Assembly (NCBI GenBank): GCA_938010785.1
Contig: CALLVC010000465.1
Location: forward strand, 1-37,944
DNA: 37,944 nt
DNA from: an uncultured Saprospiraceae bacterium
GTDB lineage: Bacteria; Bacteroidota; Bacteroidia; Chitinophagales; Saprospiraceae
Direction of reading: 5' to 3'
Part shown: positions 6,699-29,221 of the stretch, one piece after another
Layout: every line of letters begins with the position of its first letter
Position numbering within the stretch: position 1 is the first letter of the stretch
Position numbers and translations under genes: made by a program
Notes under the pieces: model-generated
Database searches by the model: none
What the model saw: the letters and a program-made list of their open reading frames with translations, nothing else
What the model was told of the DNA's origin: nothing

Positions 6699-7490
6699 AT
6701 GGATTTTATTTCTGAAAAACTAATCACCATCATGAACGCTTGGCCGCCAGAGGCTATCTGGGTATTGATGTTGATTATCTGCTTTTTAACCATCCTTGGC
6801 GCTAATCGTTATTATGGTCCTGGCGGTTTATTTGCCTATATAGCCGTTTCTATTATCATCGCCAATATTCAGGTGTTAAAAGCGGTACAATTTAATTTGT
6901 ATCCTGAACCTGTTGCTTTGGGGACGATTCTTTTCTCTTCTACCTATTTGGCAACAGATATTCTTGGAGAAAACTACGGCATTAAAAAAGCAAGAAATGG
7001 CGTTTTTATGGGTTTATTTGCCCACCTCTTTTTCTCCATTATTATGCTATTTACACTTGGCTTTTCCCCACTCACGCCCGAACAAGCAGGAGAAGCGATG
7101 GCTTGGGCTTTGCCTTATCACGACCATATTTCTAAATTATTCACTTTACAATTCTCCTTATTTTTTGCGGGTTTAGCAGCTTATCTAACCAGTCAATTGT
7201 ACGACATTTGGTTTTATGATTGGATTAAACGGAAAACAAAAAATCGCTACTTATGGTTGCGAAATAATGCTTCGACGATGGTTTCTGCGCTCATCGACAA
7301 TACTGTTTTTTCCGTTTTAGCATGGATTGTACTTAGCTCAAACCCTCTTCCTTTTATGACCGTTTTGGTTACTTATATTTTAGGTACGTATTGGCTACGA
7401 TTGTTTATTGCCATCTTAGATACGCCGATGATTTATTTGTCTAAACAGTGGAAGTATGTTGGAGAAACGATTAACGAGAGTAGAGAGTAG
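6699..7490 (+). CDS. yhhQ: Queuosine-precursor transporter (YhhQ/QPTR family)
   Basis: Inner-membrane importer of the queuosine family (COG1738, Vut_1 fold), carrying queuine or its precursors into the cell. The 263-residue protein is almost wholly hydrophobic with about six or seven membrane helices. Family signatures are visible: ATDILGENYGIKKARNGV (about residues 87-104) and the segment LRNNASTMVSALIDNTVFS (about 187-205), where small and charged residues line the substrate path. The next two genes on the same strand are a tRNA-guanine transglycosylase and a queuosine-salvage nucleosidase, which fixes the substrate class. The exact molecule imported (queuine, queuosine or preQ1) cannot be read from the sequence; the neighbours favour queuine or queuosine. 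Confidence 0.9.
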   Translation: MDFISEKLITIMNAWPPEAIWVLMLIICFLTILGANRYYGPGGLFAYIAVSIIIANIQVLKAVQFNLYPEPVALGTILFSSTYLATDILGENYGIKKARNGVFMGLFAHLFFSIIMLFTLGFSPLTPEQAGEAMAWALPYHDHISKLFTLQFSLFFAGLAAYLTSQLYDIWFYDWIKRKTKNRYLWLRNNASTMVSALIDNTVFSVLAWIVLSSNPLPFMTVLVTYILGTYWLRLFIAILDTPMIYLSKQWKYVGETINESRE

Positions 7491-7559
7491 AGACCATTCC
7501 GCAAGCGGAATTGAGGGAATAGAGACTTACAACCAGCGTTTCACCGAGTAAAGTCTCTT
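7485..7559 (+). repeat. GAGAGTAGAGAGTAGAG word at the transporter stop
   Basis: The TAG stop of the transporter is itself part of a tandem GAGAGTAGAGAGTAGAGAC word. A small palindrome TTCCGC-AA-GCGGAA, a further GAATAGAGACTT copy and the complementary AAGTCTCTTC follow, so the purine-rich and pyrimidine-rich copies can pair. This fits the stop-to-start word pattern seen elsewhere in the window. Confidence 0.55.
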
Positions 7560-7617
7560 CTATTAATAATATTTTCACAACTAACAAATTCATCATTCAT
7601 CATTTATTTATATTCCT

Positions 7618-7625
7618 TATTTTTG
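7618..7625 (+). promoter_or_regulatory. -7 box TATTTTTG immediately before tgt
   Basis: TATTTTTG followed by C matches TAnnTTTG and ends only four bases before the tgt ATG. If it is active, transcription would begin at or next to the start codon and give a leaderless or nearly leaderless mRNA. A chance match in AT-rich DNA is possible, since tgt could also be read from the transporter promoter. Confidence 0.35.
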
Positions 7626-7629
7626 CCGA

Positions 7630-8811
7630 ATGTTAGAATATCCTGGATTTAATTTTGAAGTAGTAAAAGAAGCATCGGACACTAATGCTCGCTTAGGCTT
7701 ATTGACGACTCCTCATGGGACGATAGAAACGCCTAATTTTATTTTTTGTGCGACCAAAGCAGCAATAAAAGGAGCTGGCCCCGAAGATTTGAGGGCGGCG
7801 AATACCGATATTATTTTGGCCAATACTTATCATCTTTTATTAAGACCTGGCCCTGATTTGATTGAAAAAATGGGTGGTTTACATAAATTTATGAATTGGG
7901 ATGGCCCGATGCTAACGGATAGTGGCGGATTCCAGATTTTTAGTTTGGGACATGGGTCAGTTGCAGAGGAGATAAAAGGAAAAAGAAATTCTGGTTATCA
8001 AAAAAGCCTCAAAAAAATAACGGAACAAGGGGCTACCTTTAAATCTTATATTGATGGAAGTAAAAAAGTCCTTACACCAGAATCAGCGATTGATACTCAG
8101 CGAAAATTAGGGGCTGATATTATTTTAGTGTTGGATGAGTGTACCCCTTTTAATGTAGATAAGAGATACACAGAGAGGTCTATGGAATTGAGTCATCGTT
8201 GGGCTATAAGAAGCTTAGAAGAATTCAAAAGAGGGCATAATGGCAAACAAGGCTTATATGGGATTATCCAAGGAGGTGTTTATGAAGATTTAAGATTGAG
8301 AGCGTCTAATTTTATTTCCGAGCAACCTTTCTTTGGGCATGCCATTGGAGGTTCATTAGGGGCTAATAAAGCGCAGATGTATGAAGTGGTGGAGATGGCT
8401 ATGGCTGGATTGAGAAAAGACAAACCTATTCATTTATTAGGAATTGGTGGCGTACAAGATGTTTGGGAAAATGTAGCAAAAGGTATTGATACTTTTGACT
8501 GTGTCTCGCCGACTCGAATTGCTCGACATGGTTGGGCATTGGTGCGTACAGAAAAGCGATATAGATTGAATCTGATGAATGCGACGCATAGAGAATCTGA
8601 TATTGCGGTTGACCCTGAATGTGATTGCCGAACTTGCCAAAATTATAGTCGAGCTTATATTCATTATTTATTGAAAGCGAAAGAGTTACAAGGGATGCAT
8701 TTGCTGACCGTTCACAACATCCGATTTATGACTCGCTTATTTGAAACGGTTCGTGAGGCAATTAAAAATGATAATTATCTGGAAGCTAAGCGGGCTTGGT
8801 TGCAGGTTTAA
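7630..8811 (+). CDS. tgt: tRNA-guanine transglycosylase, Chlamydia-like type
   Basis: Exchanges the G34 base of GUN-anticodon tRNAs for a 7-deazaguanine. The 393-residue TIM-barrel carries Asp97 in TDSGGFQIFSL, the nucleophile Asp290 in TFDCVSPTRIARHG, and a zinc site at Cys331, Cys333, Cys336 and His362 (CDCRTC...VHN). It departs from usual preQ1-type bacterial enzymes: GHGSVAEEIKG after the DSGGFQ motif, and AIGGSLGANKAQM where most bacteria have GGLSVGEP. As I remember the chlamydial Tgt, which accepts queuine directly, it has very similar segments (YGSVAEEIK, AIGGSLGRN, HLLGIG). With the adjacent transporter and Qng1-like gene I infer that this enzyme inserts queuine. Function as a Tgt is firm; substrate preference is inference. 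Confidence 0.92.
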   Translation: MLEYPGFNFEVVKEASDTNARLGLLTTPHGTIETPNFIFCATKAAIKGAGPEDLRAANTDIILANTYHLLLRPGPDLIEKMGGLHKFMNWDGPMLTDSGGFQIFSLGHGSVAEEIKGKRNSGYQKSLKKITEQGATFKSYIDGSKKVLTPESAIDTQRKLGADIILVLDECTPFNVDKRYTERSMELSHRWAIRSLEEFKRGHNGKQGLYGIIQGGVYEDLRLRASNFISEQPFFGHAIGGSLGANKAQMYEVVEMAMAGLRKDKPIHLLGIGGVQDVWENVAKGIDTFDCVSPTRIARHGWALVRTEKRYRLNLMNATHRESDIAVDPECDCRTCQNYSRAYIHYLLKAKELQGMHLLTVHNIRFMTRLFETVREAIKNDNYLEAKRAWLQV

Positions 8812-8985
8812 TACACTTATTTGTATTTTGTCTCGCCCACTTCGTGGGTTCAACTAGAAGATAACCTTTTTACACCCTACACTTAATTACCTATTGGATG
8901 AAAATTATTCGATATTATTTTCGGCTTTTGTATGGTTATAAACGAAAACTTCCCCAAGTTATAAATACATTCAGTTTTTGACGAA

Positions 8986-9034
8986 TTCATCGTTTCTACC
9001 TGTCGGTAGACAGGCGTCATTTATCATTCATCAT
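8986..9034 (+). repeat. 49-bp dispersed repeat, copy 1
   Basis: This stretch matches 19935-19983 on the opposite strand at 44 of 49 positions. It contains the stem-loop CCTGTC-GGTA-GACAGG and ends in the word CATTTATCATTCATCAT, just before the ATG of the Qng1-like gene. A shorter variant of the tail, TTCATCATTCATCATTTAT, precedes tgt at about 7589-7607. Confidence 0.85.
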
Positions 9035-9038
9035 TTCA

Positions 9039-10001
9039 ATGAATATATTCGAAGACATTCGACATAAAACACGTTTAGTGGCGGAAGCCGCAAAATACGT
9101 AACCATACATTTCGCTAAGCTAGATGCCTACGCTAAAGCTTTACCTATTGAATCCATAAAAAACCCACCTCTCGATGCGGATTGCCATTATCTTGGGCAT
9201 GCCGAACATACCTTATTGTATTTTTTGACTTTAGAAGCTATAAATTTTGGTTCGGGCTATTTTCCGTATTTAAAAAATAGTGTAGAAGGTTCAGGTTATT
9301 TTACCGTAGCAAAAGCATGGAAGACTTACTTTGAACAACATTCACCTGTCTCTGCGGTGGACTTGACCAAATTAACACCCCAAGATTGTTTGACTATTTT
9401 TGGGCAATCCAAAGACAATGCACCCATTGTAGAATTAATGGAACACTTTGCCATTGCTTTAAATCAAGTGGGTGATTTCCTATTAGAAAAATTTGAGGGC
9501 GAGGTGAAACAAATGTTTAAATCCGTCCATCACTCTGCGGAAGGATTGGTTAATTTACTGATACAAATTCCTTGTTTTCAAGATTTTGCAACTTACGGTG
9601 AGTTAAGAGTACCGATTTTGAAACGGCCACAAATTACAGTGGCAGACATTTCCTTAGCATTTAACAATCAAGGATTAGGCTATTTTAAGGACTTAGACCA
9701 ATTAACTATATTTGCCGACAATATGGTCCCACATGTCTTGAGATGTGATGGCATTATCTCCTATGAGGCTTCCTTAGCAAATACTATTGATACGAACCAA
9801 TTAGTTCCAGCAAGTTCTACCGAAGAAGTAGAAATTCGAGCTTGTGCGATTTATGTCGTAGAATTATTGCGCGCTAAATTTCAAGCCGCAGGATACGATT
9901 TCACCTCCGTTGATTTAGACTACCTCCTTTGGAATAGAGGACAAGCTGCTTTCTATGAAACAACCTATCCTATACATCTGACTCGTACTACTTTTTATTA
10001 G
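9039..10001 (+). CDS. Queuosine-salvage nucleosidase, Qng1/DUF2419 family
   Basis: Homologue of the Q-salvage (DUF2419) family, whose eukaryotic member Qng1 (C9orf64) releases queuine from queuosine 5'-monophosphate. The 320-residue soluble protein shows the family pattern: an N-terminal P-x-D-x-x-H-Y segment and TLEAINFGSGYF (about 64-75); VPILKRPQITVADI (191-204); DQLTIFADNMVPHVLRCDG (220-238); TEEVEIRACAIYVVELL (261-277); LDYLLWNRGQ (293-302); and a C-terminal HLTRTTFY resembling the conserved P-x-HRTRTxxY ending. It follows tgt on the same strand, after a 227-base gap. Together with the transporter this implies import of queuine or queuosine derivatives, release of the base and direct insertion into tRNA. 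Whether the substrate is the nucleoside or the 5'-phosphate is not visible. Confidence 0.85.
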   Translation: MNIFEDIRHKTRLVAEAAKYVTIHFAKLDAYAKALPIESIKNPPLDADCHYLGHAEHTLLYFLTLEAINFGSGYFPYLKNSVEGSGYFTVAKAWKTYFEQHSPVSAVDLTKLTPQDCLTIFGQSKDNAPIVELMEHFAIALNQVGDFLLEKFEGEVKQMFKSVHHSAEGLVNLLIQIPCFQDFATYGELRVPILKRPQITVADISLAFNNQGLGYFKDLDQLTIFADNMVPHVLRCDGIISYEASLANTIDTNQLVPASSTEEVEIRACAIYVVELLRAKFQAAGYDFTSVDLDYLLWNRGQAAFYETTYPIHLTRTTFY

Positions 10002-10160: not shown

Positions 10161-11459
10161 CTATTTTACTTCTTCTTCTACAACGACCGCGGGTGCTTCC
10201 CAACGTCGATAGCCAACAGGAGCAATTTCTGCTTTCTTCACCGCTTTACCGCCTCTATTTTTATCATAAATCATTGCAAAAGTCATTATTAAACTGGTTC
10301 CGATAATCGTCCATAGCAAAATACCTGGTTGAAAACCTTCAATTTTAGCACTTTCTGGAATCGCATAATACAATAGAATCGTAATCAAACCTCTTGGTGC
10401 AATGAATAATTGTGGTAAAATATCTTCTCCGATAAAAGCTCTAAGAATAATATAACGAATGGCATAAATTGATAAAATAATCAAACCACTAATCATCGCT
10501 ACTTCTAGGTTGGCTAAAGAAGATAAAACAATCGTAATACCAAAAATTACAAAGAAAAAAGTTCTTACCACAAAAGCAGTTTCCATCGTAATGACGTGTA
10601 AACCTTCGTAGATATGGTGCGCTTCTTTGTAGTTTAAATATTTCTTTAATGGCCCAAAAAAGAACAATTTCATGTTCGCTATCAATAAGCCAAAAATCAA
10701 AATCATCAATAAAGAGGAAAGATGTATTTGTTTTCCTAAAGAATAGAATAATAAAAGCACTGCTATTAATAAAAACAGCTTAACGTGGCTTTTTATCTTT
10801 TGAAATATTAAGACGATTAAATAACTAATTATCAGTGAAACAACAACCGTTAAAACAATATTCATCAAAAAACCTGCTGTCCCACCTGTCCCTTCTGCGG
10901 CTTCTAATTGTCCTGATAAAAAATAGAATAACATGATTCCCATAATGTCAGAAAAAGTACTTTCATAAATATGAAATTCTTTTTTATCTGAACGTAAATC
11001 TCCAACACTTGGAATAATAATCGCACTCGATAAAATCGACAGTGTCGTCGCATACAACCAAGCTGAAACGCTCGTCATACCGGGTACAAAGTACTGTAGA
11101 ATCATTGCCGCTGCCCAAGTCGATGCAATTAAACCGATAAAGGCTATCAACATAGATTTGGCAATGGGCACTAACTTTTCCCGCTTCAATTCCAGCTCTA
11201 ATGCCGCCTCTAATACAATCATAATCAAACCCACTGTACCTAAAATGGGCAAAATAGAATCAAAATCAAATCCTCCTAACTTGTCTGCTAAGGCAATATT
11301 CGCCACTATTCCCAATATAATGAGCATCAAAACAGACGGAATACTGGTCTTTTTTGCCAATTCTCCAAAAACGAAGGAAATAATAATTACTGCTGATGCC
11401 GCAATAATTAAGGTGTAGGTAGAACCAGCTCCGAGTAAAAATGGTAAGGTTGAAAACAT
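10161..11459 (-). CDS. Cation/proton antiporter (CPA superfamily)
   Basis: Inner-membrane Na+ or K+/H+ exchanger of the Na_H_Exchanger family, 432 residues with about 11-13 hydrophobic helices. The core shows STLSILSSAIIIPSVG-like TM4 (about 138-153) and the ion-site helix YESTFSDIMGIMLFYF (165-180). CPA1 proteins usually have ExxxND here; this one has ESTFSD, keeping Glu166 and the carboxylate Asp171 but replacing Asn with Ser170. LFIAPRGLITILLYYAIP is the usual basic late helix. There is no C-terminal TrkA or Usp domain, only a short charged tail. It is the last gene of a three-gene operon, 42 bases after the MscS-like gene, suggesting that ion exchange is controlled by the two upstream products. 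The exact ion is unknown. Confidence 0.85.
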   Translation of the reverse strand: MFSTLPFLLGAGSTYTLIIAASAVIIISFVFGELAKKTSIPSVLMLIILGIVANIALADKLGGFDFDSILPILGTVGLIMIVLEAALELELKREKLVPIAKSMLIAFIGLIASTWAAAMILQYFVPGMTSVSAWLYATTLSILSSAIIIPSVGDLRSDKKEFHIYESTFSDIMGIMLFYFLSGQLEAAEGTGGTAGFLMNIVLTVVVSLIISYLIVLIFQKIKSHVKLFLLIAVLLLFYSLGKQIHLSSLLMILIFGLLIANMKLFFFGPLKKYLNYKEAHHIYEGLHVITMETAFVVRTFFFVIFGITIVLSSLANLEVAMISGLIILSIYAIRYIILRAFIGEDILPQLFIAPRGLITILLYYAIPESAKIEGFQPGILLWTIIGTSLIMTFAMIYDKNRGGKAVKKAEIAPVGYRRWEAPAVVVEEEVK

Positions 11460-11501
11460 AATTATTTGTCTACTTGAATAATTTTAATAACTAATGACTA
11501 A

Positions 11502-12305
11502 TTATATAGCTCCTAATTTACAATTATACCCCCACTCTTTGATGAGTGCAATTAATTCATGTAAATGACTTTCTTCTTTTATTAGCACTTTAGCTTCTAA
11601 TTGATTTTCTTGGTTATCATCTTGAAAAATTTCAGGTTTATGATGCCAATCTACGTAGGGTGCCGTCGCAAATAAATCCAATAAGTGGACCTTATGGTTG
11701 GACACATTGTTTAGATTTTCTTTTGGCGTCAATTCTAAATGATAAAAACCACCAATCTCTTCTCCAGAAACTATAGTATAGCCGTTTTTAACTAATTGAT
11801 TATAACTTAAATGGTGCACTCCTTCACTTGTTTGCAGGTGTAATTTCACACGGTCCATTTTTGATACCACTCCCTGCAAATCAGCCGTCCGAAGTTCTAT
11901 TCCTTCTGTTATCGCATTATCAAAGTTCACCCATCTTCCATTAATATAACTTCTTAAATAGGTCCAACTCCCTACTACTATAAATCCAATAATTAATCCA
12001 TGCAATAGTGGATTAATCCAAATAAAAACGCCTGCAAGCGTCACAATAGCTATCAGTTCAAATACAACAAATATTTGTCTAAATAGCTCTCTAAATCGAT
12101 TCTGATAGCGTCCAGAAAAAGAACTATGCTTGGTCAGCTGTTGGATTTCAAAAAGAATAAAGTATAGGACTGCTAGCCCAAGCGCCACTAAGAAGAATTC
12201 GCCCCAACTTATATTTATTAGTTGGTCCATAATTCCTTCGCTATGCTCCACTTTATCTGTCTGTTCCAGCACAACTGAACTTTCCGTTGTATCTTTATTT
12301 TCCAT
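11502..12305 (-). CDS. Membrane protein with MscS-like beta domain
   Basis: 267-residue protein with an acidic N-terminus, a first hydrophobic helix (about 34-52), a basic amphipathic link, two more helices (about 78-96 and 98-117), and then a soluble domain. The segment INPLLHGLIIGFIVVG...GIELRTADLQGVVSKMDRVKLHLQTSEGVHHLSYNQLV has the layout of an MscS pore helix and beta domain (G-x-V, strand, T-x-x-G, then a PN-like turn). The usual glycine/alanine-rich pore helix is weakly conserved, so a conventional channel is doubtful. It starts seven bases after the ATPase stop and is co-transcribed with it and the antiporter. I propose it as the membrane receptor or regulatory partner; the function is unknown. 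Confidence 0.75.
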   Translation of the reverse strand: MENKDTTESSVVLEQTDKVEHSEGIMDQLINISWGEFFLVALGLAVLYFILFEIQQLTKHSSFSGRYQNRFRELFRQIFVVFELIAIVTLAGVFIWINPLLHGLIIGFIVVGSWTYLRSYINGRWVNFDNAITEGIELRTADLQGVVSKMDRVKLHLQTSEGVHHLSYNQLVKNGYTIVSGEEIGGFYHLELTPKENLNNVSNHKVHLLDLFATAPYVDWHHKPEIFQDDNQENQLEAKVLIKEESHLHELIALIKEWGYNCKLGAI

Positions 12306-12312
12306 TATTTCT

Positions 12313-14715
12313 TTATTTTAAAGCTTCTCGATGATATTTCAGATAACCTTTATCTTCTAATAAATGTCCTAATTCATTAACCAAGGTCTCATTGATTTCT
12401 AACCAGCCATCCAACTGACGCCGTAATAAACCTATCCCTAATAAACGTTGTGAAATCGGAGCATATTTTTCCGTAAAGGCGGGACCAAATAACCTTCTCA
12501 GTCGATATTCATTTGTCCGTTTTTCCATCATGATAGCGGATAATAAAATGGCTGAATCTGGAGTTAAAAAATCAGGCAAACCAAAATTAACCCCTCCATT
12601 ATGGAGTACATTTTCCTCATCTACCCGCTGAGTGGCACAAGACCATCTATTTAATGCTTCTCCAATATTACCCCCTGAAACTTTATAAATCTTGTCAATC
12701 TTCTTTTGGAATTCATGTCCCGATAAAGCTTCTCCATCTTTATTCAGTAATTTTTTATGGGTCGCACCATGTCGAATCATAATGGCTTCTCGAATTTCGG
12801 CTAAAGACATTTTATCCACATTGATTTCTGCTTGAAATACCTTGCTTGTATCGTGGAACAAATTTAAGTGGGTATTCAACCAATTACTCATGGATACTAA
12901 AAAGAATAATCGGTTGGCATTATTATCAATAAATTTTCGCAAGGTGCGTACGTTCTGACTCAATGGCATGTCTCTGTCCCACCACAATTCCATGTCATCA
13001 ATCCAAATCATTGGTGGTCTTTTGGGCGCATATTTTTTTATAAATGCCAAAGCTGGTTCTAAATCAAAACCCGTCGTCATTCGTCTACCATTCAAATTTA
13101 TTAGGCTGTTCGGCGCTAATCGAATCGTATTATTATCAAAAAATTGATTGGCAATTAACTCCCCTAAAATCGTTTTACCTGAAAATCTTTCCCCTGTTAT
13201 CACTACTGCGCCTCTATAACCATCTCTCCAATTGTCTATCAGGTTTTTAGCATGAGCTAATTCTTGCTCTCGGCCTACTGCAAATGATTCTCCTATAAAT
13301 CCTTTAGTCAAAAAGATACTAGCATAGTTACTATTATTCAATTCCCCTGTTCTGCTTTGTATCAACCGAACAATTTTTTCAGAATCGCTTAGTGCATCTT
13401 CTCTCGCTACTGTTTTTCGAAGGTCCTGAATTCTTTTCCATTGTTGATTGAATAAATTACCTACTCGATTTTGGATTTTATTTTGTCCTTTTTTAAACTG
13501 ATTGAGTGTCGCTGCTTGAATTGGAATGGGCAAAAATGCTCGTTCGGTGTCGTATATTTCTGAGACGTTAAAGTCTTTCGCTAATCTTTCGTGAATAAGC
13601 GCTCTTAATTCCGCAATACTGGTTTCCGCCTGTGCCGCAACCCTATAAAATACATTTAAAGGCTGGCTAATCGTTGCCTTATCCAAATCGACTTTCTTTC
13701 CTTCTTTTTCCTCTGCGTCTAATAAAATTGCCCGATTTTTAATATTAATCAAAGCCATTTTTAAGCCGTTATGGGTATTTTCGGTCAACTCCCATATTTC
13801 ATATAAAATAGGCAGAATCTCCGCATCCAACCATTGCTTCGTACTTCGCTTAAAGGTCAAATCTTTTATCTCTACCATTCCCCCATCTACTCCGACAGGC
13901 ATTTCTCCTTTTACGACAATATCATTAATACGGTGTTCTAAATTTGTCGTAAAACTATTAAAGTGATTGGGTAGGCTGATTCCTGCTTCTAAGTCTTCTA
14001 GATGTTTAACTATCTGTCCTAATCTAGGCAAATTATCATTTTCAATATCTGCTATAGTTTGGTCGGCTATTTGTTTAACTCCTTTTATTTCATCTGCACA
14101 GAACTTTTCCGTTTGGCGTACTAAATCTTCAATCTCATTAAAATTAGCCGCTACATTTAACAAAACTCGATAATCTTTTTGCAGTACTTGGCATTGCTCC
14201 CCCATCTCGACTAGCTGCTTTTTATAGACTGGCCAAGGATTTTGCTGCAACTGCCATTGTTTGATATGTTTTGTACGTTCTTTTTCTAAAACATTTAACC
14301 CTCTTTCGACATCTCCTTTAAAATCATAAATCGCCTTTTCGAGCGATTCCTGAGATTGTAAATTTAATGCTCGCAATGCCGTAGCAGATGTTAGTCGGTC
14401 AATTTTAATGATTTGACCTTTCTGCTGTTGGAACAAAATATCTCGCCACAAAATCATAAACTCCTTCGCTAAGTTCGTCCATTCAAAACATACCCAATTG
14501 TATGCGAAACGTTGCTTTTCGGTTAACTCCGCTTCATTGTTCATCAATTCTTGATGACAATAATCTCCTATCGATACCAAAGCTGCGCTTATATTCGTGG
14601 CTTCACTAGCCATTGTCTCCAAATTAATAGGCAAGTTTTTTGCTTCCCATGTTTTCTTAATGCTTTGGGCTGTAACCGTTTCAAAATTCGTCAATAAGTC
14701 TTGTAACTGATTCAT
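12313..14715 (-). CDS. 800-residue AAA+/STAND-like ATPase, unknown function
   Basis: Large cytoplasmic ATPase of an unrecognised family. Residues 1-470 are helical and charged, with coiled-coil-like stretches and no domain I can name. The NTPase module begins at GREQEL (481-486) and has Walker A GERFSGKT (508-515), Walker B MIWIDD (569-574), a sensor-1-like Asn in LVSMSN (611) and a sensor-2-like GGNIGEALNRW (681-691). The remainder resembles a winged-helix lid (RLLGIGLLRRQLDGWLEI). The order GREx, Walker A, WIDD, winged helix is that of ORC/STAND switch ATPases. No signal peptide or membrane helix is seen. It heads an operon with the MscS-like and antiporter genes, implying nucleotide-driven control of a membrane ion exchanger. 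A stress-sensing or defence role are both possible. Confidence 0.8.
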   Translation of the reverse strand: MNQLQDLLTNFETVTAQSIKKTWEAKNLPINLETMASEATNISAALVSIGDYCHQELMNNEAELTEKQRFAYNWVCFEWTNLAKEFMILWRDILFQQQKGQIIKIDRLTSATALRALNLQSQESLEKAIYDFKGDVERGLNVLEKERTKHIKQWQLQQNPWPVYKKQLVEMGEQCQVLQKDYRVLLNVAANFNEIEDLVRQTEKFCADEIKGVKQIADQTIADIENDNLPRLGQIVKHLEDLEAGISLPNHFNSFTTNLEHRINDIVVKGEMPVGVDGGMVEIKDLTFKRSTKQWLDAEILPILYEIWELTENTHNGLKMALINIKNRAILLDAEEKEGKKVDLDKATISQPLNVFYRVAAQAETSIAELRALIHERLAKDFNVSEIYDTERAFLPIPIQAATLNQFKKGQNKIQNRVGNLFNQQWKRIQDLRKTVAREDALSDSEKIVRLIQSRTGELNNSNYASIFLTKGFIGESFAVGREQELAHAKNLIDNWRDGYRGAVVITGERFSGKTILGELIANQFFDNNTIRLAPNSLINLNGRRMTTGFDLEPALAFIKKYAPKRPPMIWIDDMELWWDRDMPLSQNVRTLRKFIDNNANRLFFLVSMSNWLNTHLNLFHDTSKVFQAEINVDKMSLAEIREAIMIRHGATHKKLLNKDGEALSGHEFQKKIDKIYKVSGGNIGEALNRWSCATQRVDEENVLHNGGVNFGLPDFLTPDSAILLSAIMMEKRTNEYRLRRLFGPAFTEKYAPISQRLLGIGLLRRQLDGWLEINETLVNELGHLLEDKGYLKYHREALK

Positions 14716-28393: not shown

Positions 28394-29221
28394 ATGAATG
28401 AAGTACAAATCGTAGAACGCTATGCAAAAGATGCATTAGATGCAATTATTCGTTTCACTCCTCAACTATTATTTGCCATTGCAATAATAGTTATTGGCTT
28501 TTGGGTAATTAAAAGAATCAATAAAGTGGCCACAGCCGGACTACAAAGAACTGGAATTCCCCAAGAAATTATTTCTTTCTTTTCTTCTTTTCTAGATATT
28601 GCGATGAAAGCAGTTGTCTTGTTAGTCGCTGCAGGAAGAATTGGTTTTGATGCAACTTCTTTAGTCGCTTTGCTTGCCGCTGCTGGATTCGCGGTTGGTA
28701 TGGCATTGCAAGGATTCTTAGGAAATTTTGCTTCAGGAATCACCATCGTATTTTTCAGACCTTATAAAGTCGGGGATTGGGTTCAAGTAGCTGAACAATT
28801 TGGAAAAGTAGAAAGTATACAAATTTTTAATACAACGCTAATTACACCAGGGCAAAAGACCTTGATTGTACCAAATGGTCAAGTTACAGATAATGTAATT
28901 ACCAACTTTTCCACTAAGGGGCATATTCGATTAGAGTTGAATGTAACCATGCCATATGCGGAAAGTTTTCCGAGGGTCAAAAAAATTATTTTAGAAGCCT
29001 TAAAGGATGTGCCTAATATTGTTAATGACCCAGCACCTGAAGTTGGTATTGAAAGTTATGATAGCCATAATATAGTATTAGCTATTCGTCCTTTCATCAA
29101 CCCCGACGATTATTGGAACGCCACTTATGATACCTTAGCTCACATAAAAAAGGCATTTAGTGAAAATGGTGTTCAGGCAGCTTATTCTGAAGGGGTGGAA
29201 TTAGGACCGATTGGCTCCTAA
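28394..29221 (+). CDS. mscS: Small-conductance mechanosensitive channel MscS
   Basis: Inner-membrane tension-gated channel that releases solutes on hypo-osmotic shock. At 275 residues it has the length of E. coli MscS. Three helices lie at about 21-40, 62-82 and 88-118. The third is the pore helix LLAAAGFAVGMALQGFLGNFASG with alternating Gly and Ala, followed by FRPYKVGDWVQV and the beta-domain motif TLIVPNGQV. The C-terminal alpha/beta domain is complete. It stands alone with its own region upstream and is divergent from the DUF4956 operon. Confidence 0.95.
   Translation: MNEVQIVERYAKDALDAIIRFTPQLLFAIAIIVIGFWVIKRINKVATAGLQRTGIPQEIISFFSSFLDIAMKAVVLLVAAGRIGFDATSLVALLAAAGFAVGMALQGFLGNFASGITIVFFRPYKVGDWVQVAEQFGKVESIQIFNTTLITPGQKTLIVPNGQVTDNVITNFSTKGHIRLELNVTMPYAESFPRVKKIILEALKDVPNIVNDPAPEVGIESYDSHNIVLAIRPFINPDDYWNATYDTLAHIKKAFSENGVQAAYSEGVELGPIGS

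Follow-up and report, generated by a model that had tools for sequence, protein, structure and literature searches.

The window analysed here, a stretch of 37,944 nucleotides that forms one contig of a 6.2-Mb genome bin, carries a minus-strand operon encoding an ATPase, a membrane protein of predicted MscS fold and a cation:proton antiporter. We consider it slightly more probable than not that this operon is an ion-homeostasis module, in which a nucleotide-driven switch controls an ion path by way of the MscS-fold protein. The trio belongs to a large and apparently undescribed family of bacterial operons, where the gene of an ATP-binding switch almost always adjoins that of a channel-like membrane protein and, in several branches, that of a potassium, sodium or chloride transporter; the role of this family is probably regulation of the cell's salt balance, not defence against viruses. 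A limited search of the open-access literature returned no description of such a system, in agreement with the first-pass annotation of this DNA, which had put the trio forward as a candidate undescribed system.

The operon and its three products

The three open reading frames adjoin on the minus strand at positions 10161-14715 with spacers of 7 and 42 nt, and this layout, already reported in the first-pass annotation, was reproduced exactly in its coordinates. The features of the operon are as follows.

12313..14715, minus strand: switch ATPase, first gene of the operon, 800 aa (open reading frame; relatives in 26 of 101 related genomes; AF2 mean pLDDT 85)
13336..14715, minus strand: N-terminal region of the ATPase, residues 1-460, predicted all-helical stalk (AF2 model; no known family)
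12556..13335, minus strand: ORC/Cdc6-like AAA+ domain of the ATPase, residues 461-720 (structural match to 1w5t; Foldseek E 8e-6)
13171..13194, minus strand: Walker A motif GERFSGKT, residues 508-515 (alignment of trio ATPases)
12988..13011, minus strand: Walker B region WIDDMELW with invariant D573 (alignment of trio ATPases)
12331..12555, minus strand: C-terminal winged-helix domain, residues about 721-795 (AF2 model, structural match)
11502..12305, minus strand: MscS-fold membrane protein, 267 aa (open reading frame, AF2 model, fold matches)
11919..12011, minus strand: TM3a/TM3b of the MscS-fold protein, residues 99-129, without the canonical MscS Gly/Ala pore pattern (AF2 model, motif check)
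11784..11897, minus strand: diverged beta domain of the MscS-fold protein, residues 137-174 (AF2 model; below PF00924 detection)
10161..11459, minus strand: CPA-family cation:proton antiporter, 432 aa (PF00999, 76.6 bits)
10947..10961, minus strand: STFSD motif of the antiporter, containing D171 (invariant in 25 of 25 antiporters)

An Rfam scan of the window gave zero matches, and the window thus holds no known riboswitch. The number of sites in a promoter scan of the window was not above that in shuffled sequences; terminator-like sites were more numerous than in shuffles. Beside the trio, a plus-strand queuosine block (6699-10001) encodes a queuosine-precursor transporter (Vut_1), a tRNA-guanine transglycosylase and a queuosine salvage protein. 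A separate canonical MscS channel is encoded at 28394-29221 of the window and, unlike the trio's MscS-fold protein, has an intact TM3 pore motif.

In the AF2 model of the ATPase (mean pLDDT 85), a helical N-terminus is followed by an ORC-type AAA+ domain and a winged helix, and the predicted fold thereby combines the AAA+ core and C-terminal winged helix of an ORC/STAND AAA+ ATPase. Its top structural match was ORC2 of A. pernix (1w5t), with Z 15.6 and an rmsd of 5.2 for an alignment of 318 residues that takes in the winged helix, and for the AAA+ domain Foldseek gave an E value of 8e-6. When the protein was compared with Pfam, AAA_16 (26.7 bits, cut-off 32.6), nSTAND3 (17.7 bits, cut-off 27.2) and a weak AAA_14 match all stayed below the curated cut-offs, so that no curated Pfam family could be assigned, and a PDB sequence search returned no match. 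The unrecognised N-terminal region that had been noted on this ORC/STAND-type ATPase withstood closer inspection: about 460 residues are predicted to be all-helical apart from a small beta hairpin (residues 270-286), and no convincing match to them was found in Pfam, NCBIfam or PDB sequences. In the fold-search lists, absence of a fold was not counted as exclusion. A helical stalk is common to the pore, CPA2 and SLC12 classes described below (hhalign 97% and 87%) and is shared weakly with the trio, whose stalk resembled the SLC12-fused one at an hhalign probability of 49% and had no convincing hhalign similarity to that of the pore class. Among 28 trio ATPases, the Walker A motif reads GK[ST] in 24 and GR[ST] in 4 (L063, L025, L075 and L076), while the Walker B Asp (D573) is invariant; Arg in place of the Walker A Lys in these four argues against hydrolysis being needed everywhere.

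The middle protein had been described as MscS-like, and its predicted fold is indeed that of MscS, despite the lack of a Pfam family above cut-off. The AF2 model (mean pLDDT 85) consists of TM1, TM2, a kinked TM3a/TM3b, a beta domain and an alpha/beta domain. Its best fold matches are MscS structures, with Z up to 11.3 for E. coli MscS (5aji; 215 residues aligned), where the poor global rmsd of 12.9 arises because the domains are differently oriented. In addition, the profile of the MscS-fold family matches MscS chains at E 4e-4. The protein has no PF00924 match and only a weak, below cut-off match to a mechanosensitive-channel model of NCBIfam, and it is not among the 11 PF00924 loci of the host genome; some partners in other trios do match PF00924 (e.g. 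L073, 28.7 bits).

The third gene, annotated at first pass as a CPA antiporter, was confirmed as such by PF00999 at 76.6 bits (cut-off 26.2), which covers the CPA transmembrane domain. Its best NCBIfam match was a potassium/proton antiporter (44.6 bits, below the cut-off of that model), and a PDB search with the antiporter profile gave no match. D171 within the invariant STFSD motif is, judged by CPA family motifs, presumably the ion- or proton-binding Asp. The antiporters of different trios are 58-89% identical, and antiporters at about 58% identity or more accompany the ATPase, except at broken contigs. More distant homologues, at 44-56% identity, had neither ATPase nor MscS partner wherever their neighbourhoods could be read. 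One relative with 56% identity (L122:1810-4200, genome G070) carries a fused domain of voltage-gated K+ channels (PF00520, PF07885) and is adjoined by a CorA gene; as far as sequence goes, this fusion hints at K+ as the transported ion.

Conservation of the trio and of the ATPase/MscS pair

Relatives of the trio ATPase were found in 26 of 101 related genomes. After longer flanks had been fetched, the order ATPase, MscS-fold protein, antiporter on one strand was present in 27 of 27 genomes with a readable neighbourhood, while three genomes have short or broken contigs: those of G003 and G008 end too early to be read, and in G008 the ATPase and the antiporter lie on separate short contigs. Since the order is kept in all readable genomes, the linkage is not due to chance, and the outcome that would have spoken against the first-pass proposal, neighbours in this genome only, did not occur in the neighbourhood search. 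Mean pairwise identity within the trio is 66% for the antiporter, 32% for the ATPase and 29% for the MscS-fold protein. The distance matrices of ATPase and MscS-fold protein correlate with r = 0.96 over 24 trios, which in part reflects shared species history, and those of ATPase and antiporter with 0.72.

A profile of the ATPase domain (A4) was then run on 395 sampled Bacteroidota genomes and matched in 84, the weakest matches being marginal. After removal of duplicates the ATPase-domain family comprised 102 genes from 99 genomes. A same-strand MscS-fold gene is directly adjacent in 92 of the 98 cases with readable neighbours, downstream in 83 and upstream in 9, with a median gap of 2 nt and with 34 of the 92 pairs overlapping or abutting. 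Given 11 PF00924 loci in the host genome, chance adjacency would be expected at well under 1%. Two further ATPases, both from trios, adjoin a partner that has lost the beta domain, and four relatives are without an MscS-fold neighbour (L166, L167, L171 and L172). The two shortened partners (L075:5672-6229 and L076:5672-6235) are 185-187 aa long, and their ATPases carry the Walker A Arg. Within family f44 the ATPase occurs in 47 of 92 genomes and is thus common but not universal. In one f44 genus (L085, L089, L137-L140 and L142) the ATPase has shrunk to AAA+ domain and winged helix (about 300-450 aa), and the MscS partner is kept.

A neighbourhood without any functional link is scarcely credible in view of 27 conserved trios out of 27, 92 ATPase/MscS adjacencies out of 98, their spread over many families of the phylum and the conserved orientation; no point in its favour was found.

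Exchange of transporters and contrast in the pore motif

Around the constant ATPase/MscS pair, the transporter varies: it is a CPA antiporter in the window, a fused SLC12-type protein in a second class and a fused CPA2 exchanger together with TrkH and TrkA in a third, while a fourth group, which includes most of family f44, has no secondary or Trk transporter. In four loci (L077-L079 and L087) the ATPase forms the C-terminus of a protein of about 1700 aa with an SLC12-type cotransporter at its N-terminus (PF00324, 164 bits; PF03522 in L077; K-Cl cotransporter model TIGR00930, 382 bits, below its cut-off of 953). In six others (L161-L164, L195 and L196) its fusion partner is a Na_H_Exchanger domain (PF00999, 75.8 bits; weak match to the CPA2 model TIGR00932), and these operons run from an exchanger paralogue through the fused ATPase and MscS to TrkH and TrkA. 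The membrane protein of about 414 aa in this Trk-bearing branch was at one point taken to be unrelated; this was rejected, since hhalign (98%) shows it to be paralogous to the fused exchanger. In L165 the genes for TrkA and TrkH come before that of a fusion protein (L165:6562-10959), in which the ATPase is joined to a 13-TM domain without a corresponding Pfam or NCBIfam family. The fused CPA2-type exchanger is not close to the trio antiporter (hhalign probability 19%), and the two were, by this sequence comparison, probably recruited independently. A single genome (G038) carries a trio, an SLC12 fusion and a pore-type pair.

The fusions bear on the possibility that the ATPase is a DNA-binding regulator, which through its winged helix controls transcription of the adjacent transport genes. 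The combination of an ORC-type AAA+ domain with a winged helix behind it would suit such a function, and winged helices often bind DNA. They are, however, also a standard protein-contact element of STAND proteins, and with the module fused to polytopic membrane transporters in forms of about 1500 and 1700 aa, action at the membrane fits better. We therefore regard a DNA-binding regulator as improbable.

A motif pattern defined after inspection of the sequences detected the canonical TM3a pore motif in 53 of 53 MscS partners whose operons lack secondary and Trk transporters; among the 35 transporter-bearing operons, that of the window included, none showed it. On the ATPase tree each transporter class forms one group, the SLC12 class at only 72% support, and the presence of a transporter requires a single change. 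Because of this one split, the contrast in the pore motif counts as one evolutionary event; an earlier reading with several independent losses of the motif was dropped, as the tree allows for a single change. In two genomes of family f37, a CorA-family gene follows straight after the ATPase/MscS pair (L080:4321-5436 and L179:4287-5369), with a second MscS gene behind CorA in L179, so that ion transporters are not wholly absent from the pore class.

The trio's MscS-fold protein might still be a conducting channel, with ATPase, channel and antiporter co-regulated but working separately and forming no complex. The predicted retention of the MscS fold including the TM3 kink is consistent with this, as is the canonical motif in partners of the pore-type group, and ordinary co-transcription would account for the operons. 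On the other hand, the pore motif is missing from every transporter-bearing operon, and the covalent ATPase/transporter fusions together with the near-invariable ATPase/MscS adjacency suggest physical coupling. We judge separate action of the three proteins unlikely, though it deserves consideration.

As an alternative, it had been proposed that the trio might serve an abortive type of defence with membrane ion balance as the effector. In such a defence against phages, a STAND-like ATPase would sense infection and trigger an ion leak via the MscS-fold protein and the antiporter. STAND-based conflict systems, which are built of switch NTPases with variable partners, are common in Bacteria (PMC7159879, PMC8195603); the terms 'mechanosensitive', 'ion channel' and 'antiporter' are absent from the main texts of both papers. 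In favour of defence, known sensors have a similar STAND/AAA+ architecture with a large region at the N-terminus, and presence, in 26 of 101 relatives, is patchy. In the search against known defence families (PADLOC), the ATPase gave a single, very weak match (PDC-S02, E 0.007 over 74 residues), and the MscS-fold protein and the antiporter gave none. Against defence, no homologue was present among 50,697 phage or 72,556 plasmid records. The raw tally of PADLOC matches among 99 neighbour proteins consists of scattered single ones, each family being found once and none recurring. Moreover, pore-type relatives keep a housekeeping synteny with amidase, uridine kinase and pantothenate kinase, and the transporters belong, by sequence, to families of K+/Na+/Cl- homeostasis and have conserved, apparently functional motifs. 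Abortive defence is accordingly improbable. Taken together, the transporter families and the evidence on defence favour ion homeostasis. What stands of the original proposal, a switch ATPase joined with MscS protein and exchanger for osmotic or pH control or for defence, is a conserved coupling that most likely serves osmotic or ion control, while its defence part is not supported.

Proposed mode of action and relation to known systems

In the ion-homeostasis module that we propose, the ATPase would be a cytosolic switch, the MscS-fold protein a membrane adaptor and the transporter or channel the ion path. The ATPase would sense the nucleotide state and cycle between states, possibly with ATP hydrolysis, and its N-terminal stalk would probably receive an additional signal from the cell. 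We infer that the ATPase contacts the MscS-fold protein and acts on it, the beta and alpha/beta domains offering a docking ring beneath the membrane, and that regulation runs in this direction. In relatives without a transporter gene, the ATPase may gate a canonical MscS channel directly. In the window, the MscS-fold partner, from whose pore helix the channel signature has been lost, would couple the ATPase to the CPA antiporter, and the ATPase could in this way switch K+ (or Na+)/H+ exchange on or off for the control of turgor, pH or K+. A broader version, held with somewhat less than even confidence, is that a constant regulatory core of switch and MscS-fold protein has been fitted with unrelated transporters across the phylum (a CPA1-like antiporter, a CPA2 exchanger with Trk, an SLC12 cotransporter), and that the MscS fold, once a channel, became a subunit for coupling.

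With the MscS superfamily (MscS, YnaI, YbiO, MscK, plant MSL), the middle protein of the trio shares the predicted TM1, TM2, kinked TM3, beta and alpha/beta domains; it differs in a beta domain that lies beyond PF00924 in the window protein and in the absence of the TM3a Gly/Ala pattern from the trio. To our knowledge, an MscS channel that has an AAA+/STAND ATPase of its own has not been described. The antiporter agrees with CPA antiporters (NhaP2/CvrA-like K+/H+ antiporters, KefB/KefC) in PF00999 and the invariant S-D motif, whereas at 432 aa it is too short to include a large regulatory domain at the C-terminus like that of KefC, and two separate proteins, the ATPase and the MscS-fold protein, would provide its control. 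As in Trk/Ktr systems of K+ uptake with their TrkA/KtrA gating rings, a cytosolic nucleotide-binding protein is proposed to regulate a K+ transporter, and in two related branches TrkH and TrkA genes lie within the operon itself. Instead of a Rossmann-fold RCK/KTN ring, however, the regulator here is an ATPase of the ORC/STAND AAA+ type that has an MscS-fold protein as its partner, and it is additional to TrkA. The ATPase, finally, shares the AAA+ domain and the winged helix with ORC/Cdc6 and STAND ATPases, and its top structural match is A. pernix ORC2, but its family is set apart by the link to membrane ion transport, the long helical N-terminal stalk and the transporter fusions of its relatives.

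Control of K+ and Na+ transport in bacteria is usually ascribed to RCK/KTN gating rings, second messengers or two-component systems, and for MscS channels membrane tension is the customary explanation. If true, the pairing of an MscS fold with its own AAA+/STAND ATPase, as found in much of the Bacteroidota, would be a new type of control. With pore-type and transporter-type branches at hand, gating of an MscS fold by an ATPase and its reuse as a transporter subunit are directly testable, and the SLC12-fused form may be what corresponds in bacteria to regulated NKCC/KCC cotransport.
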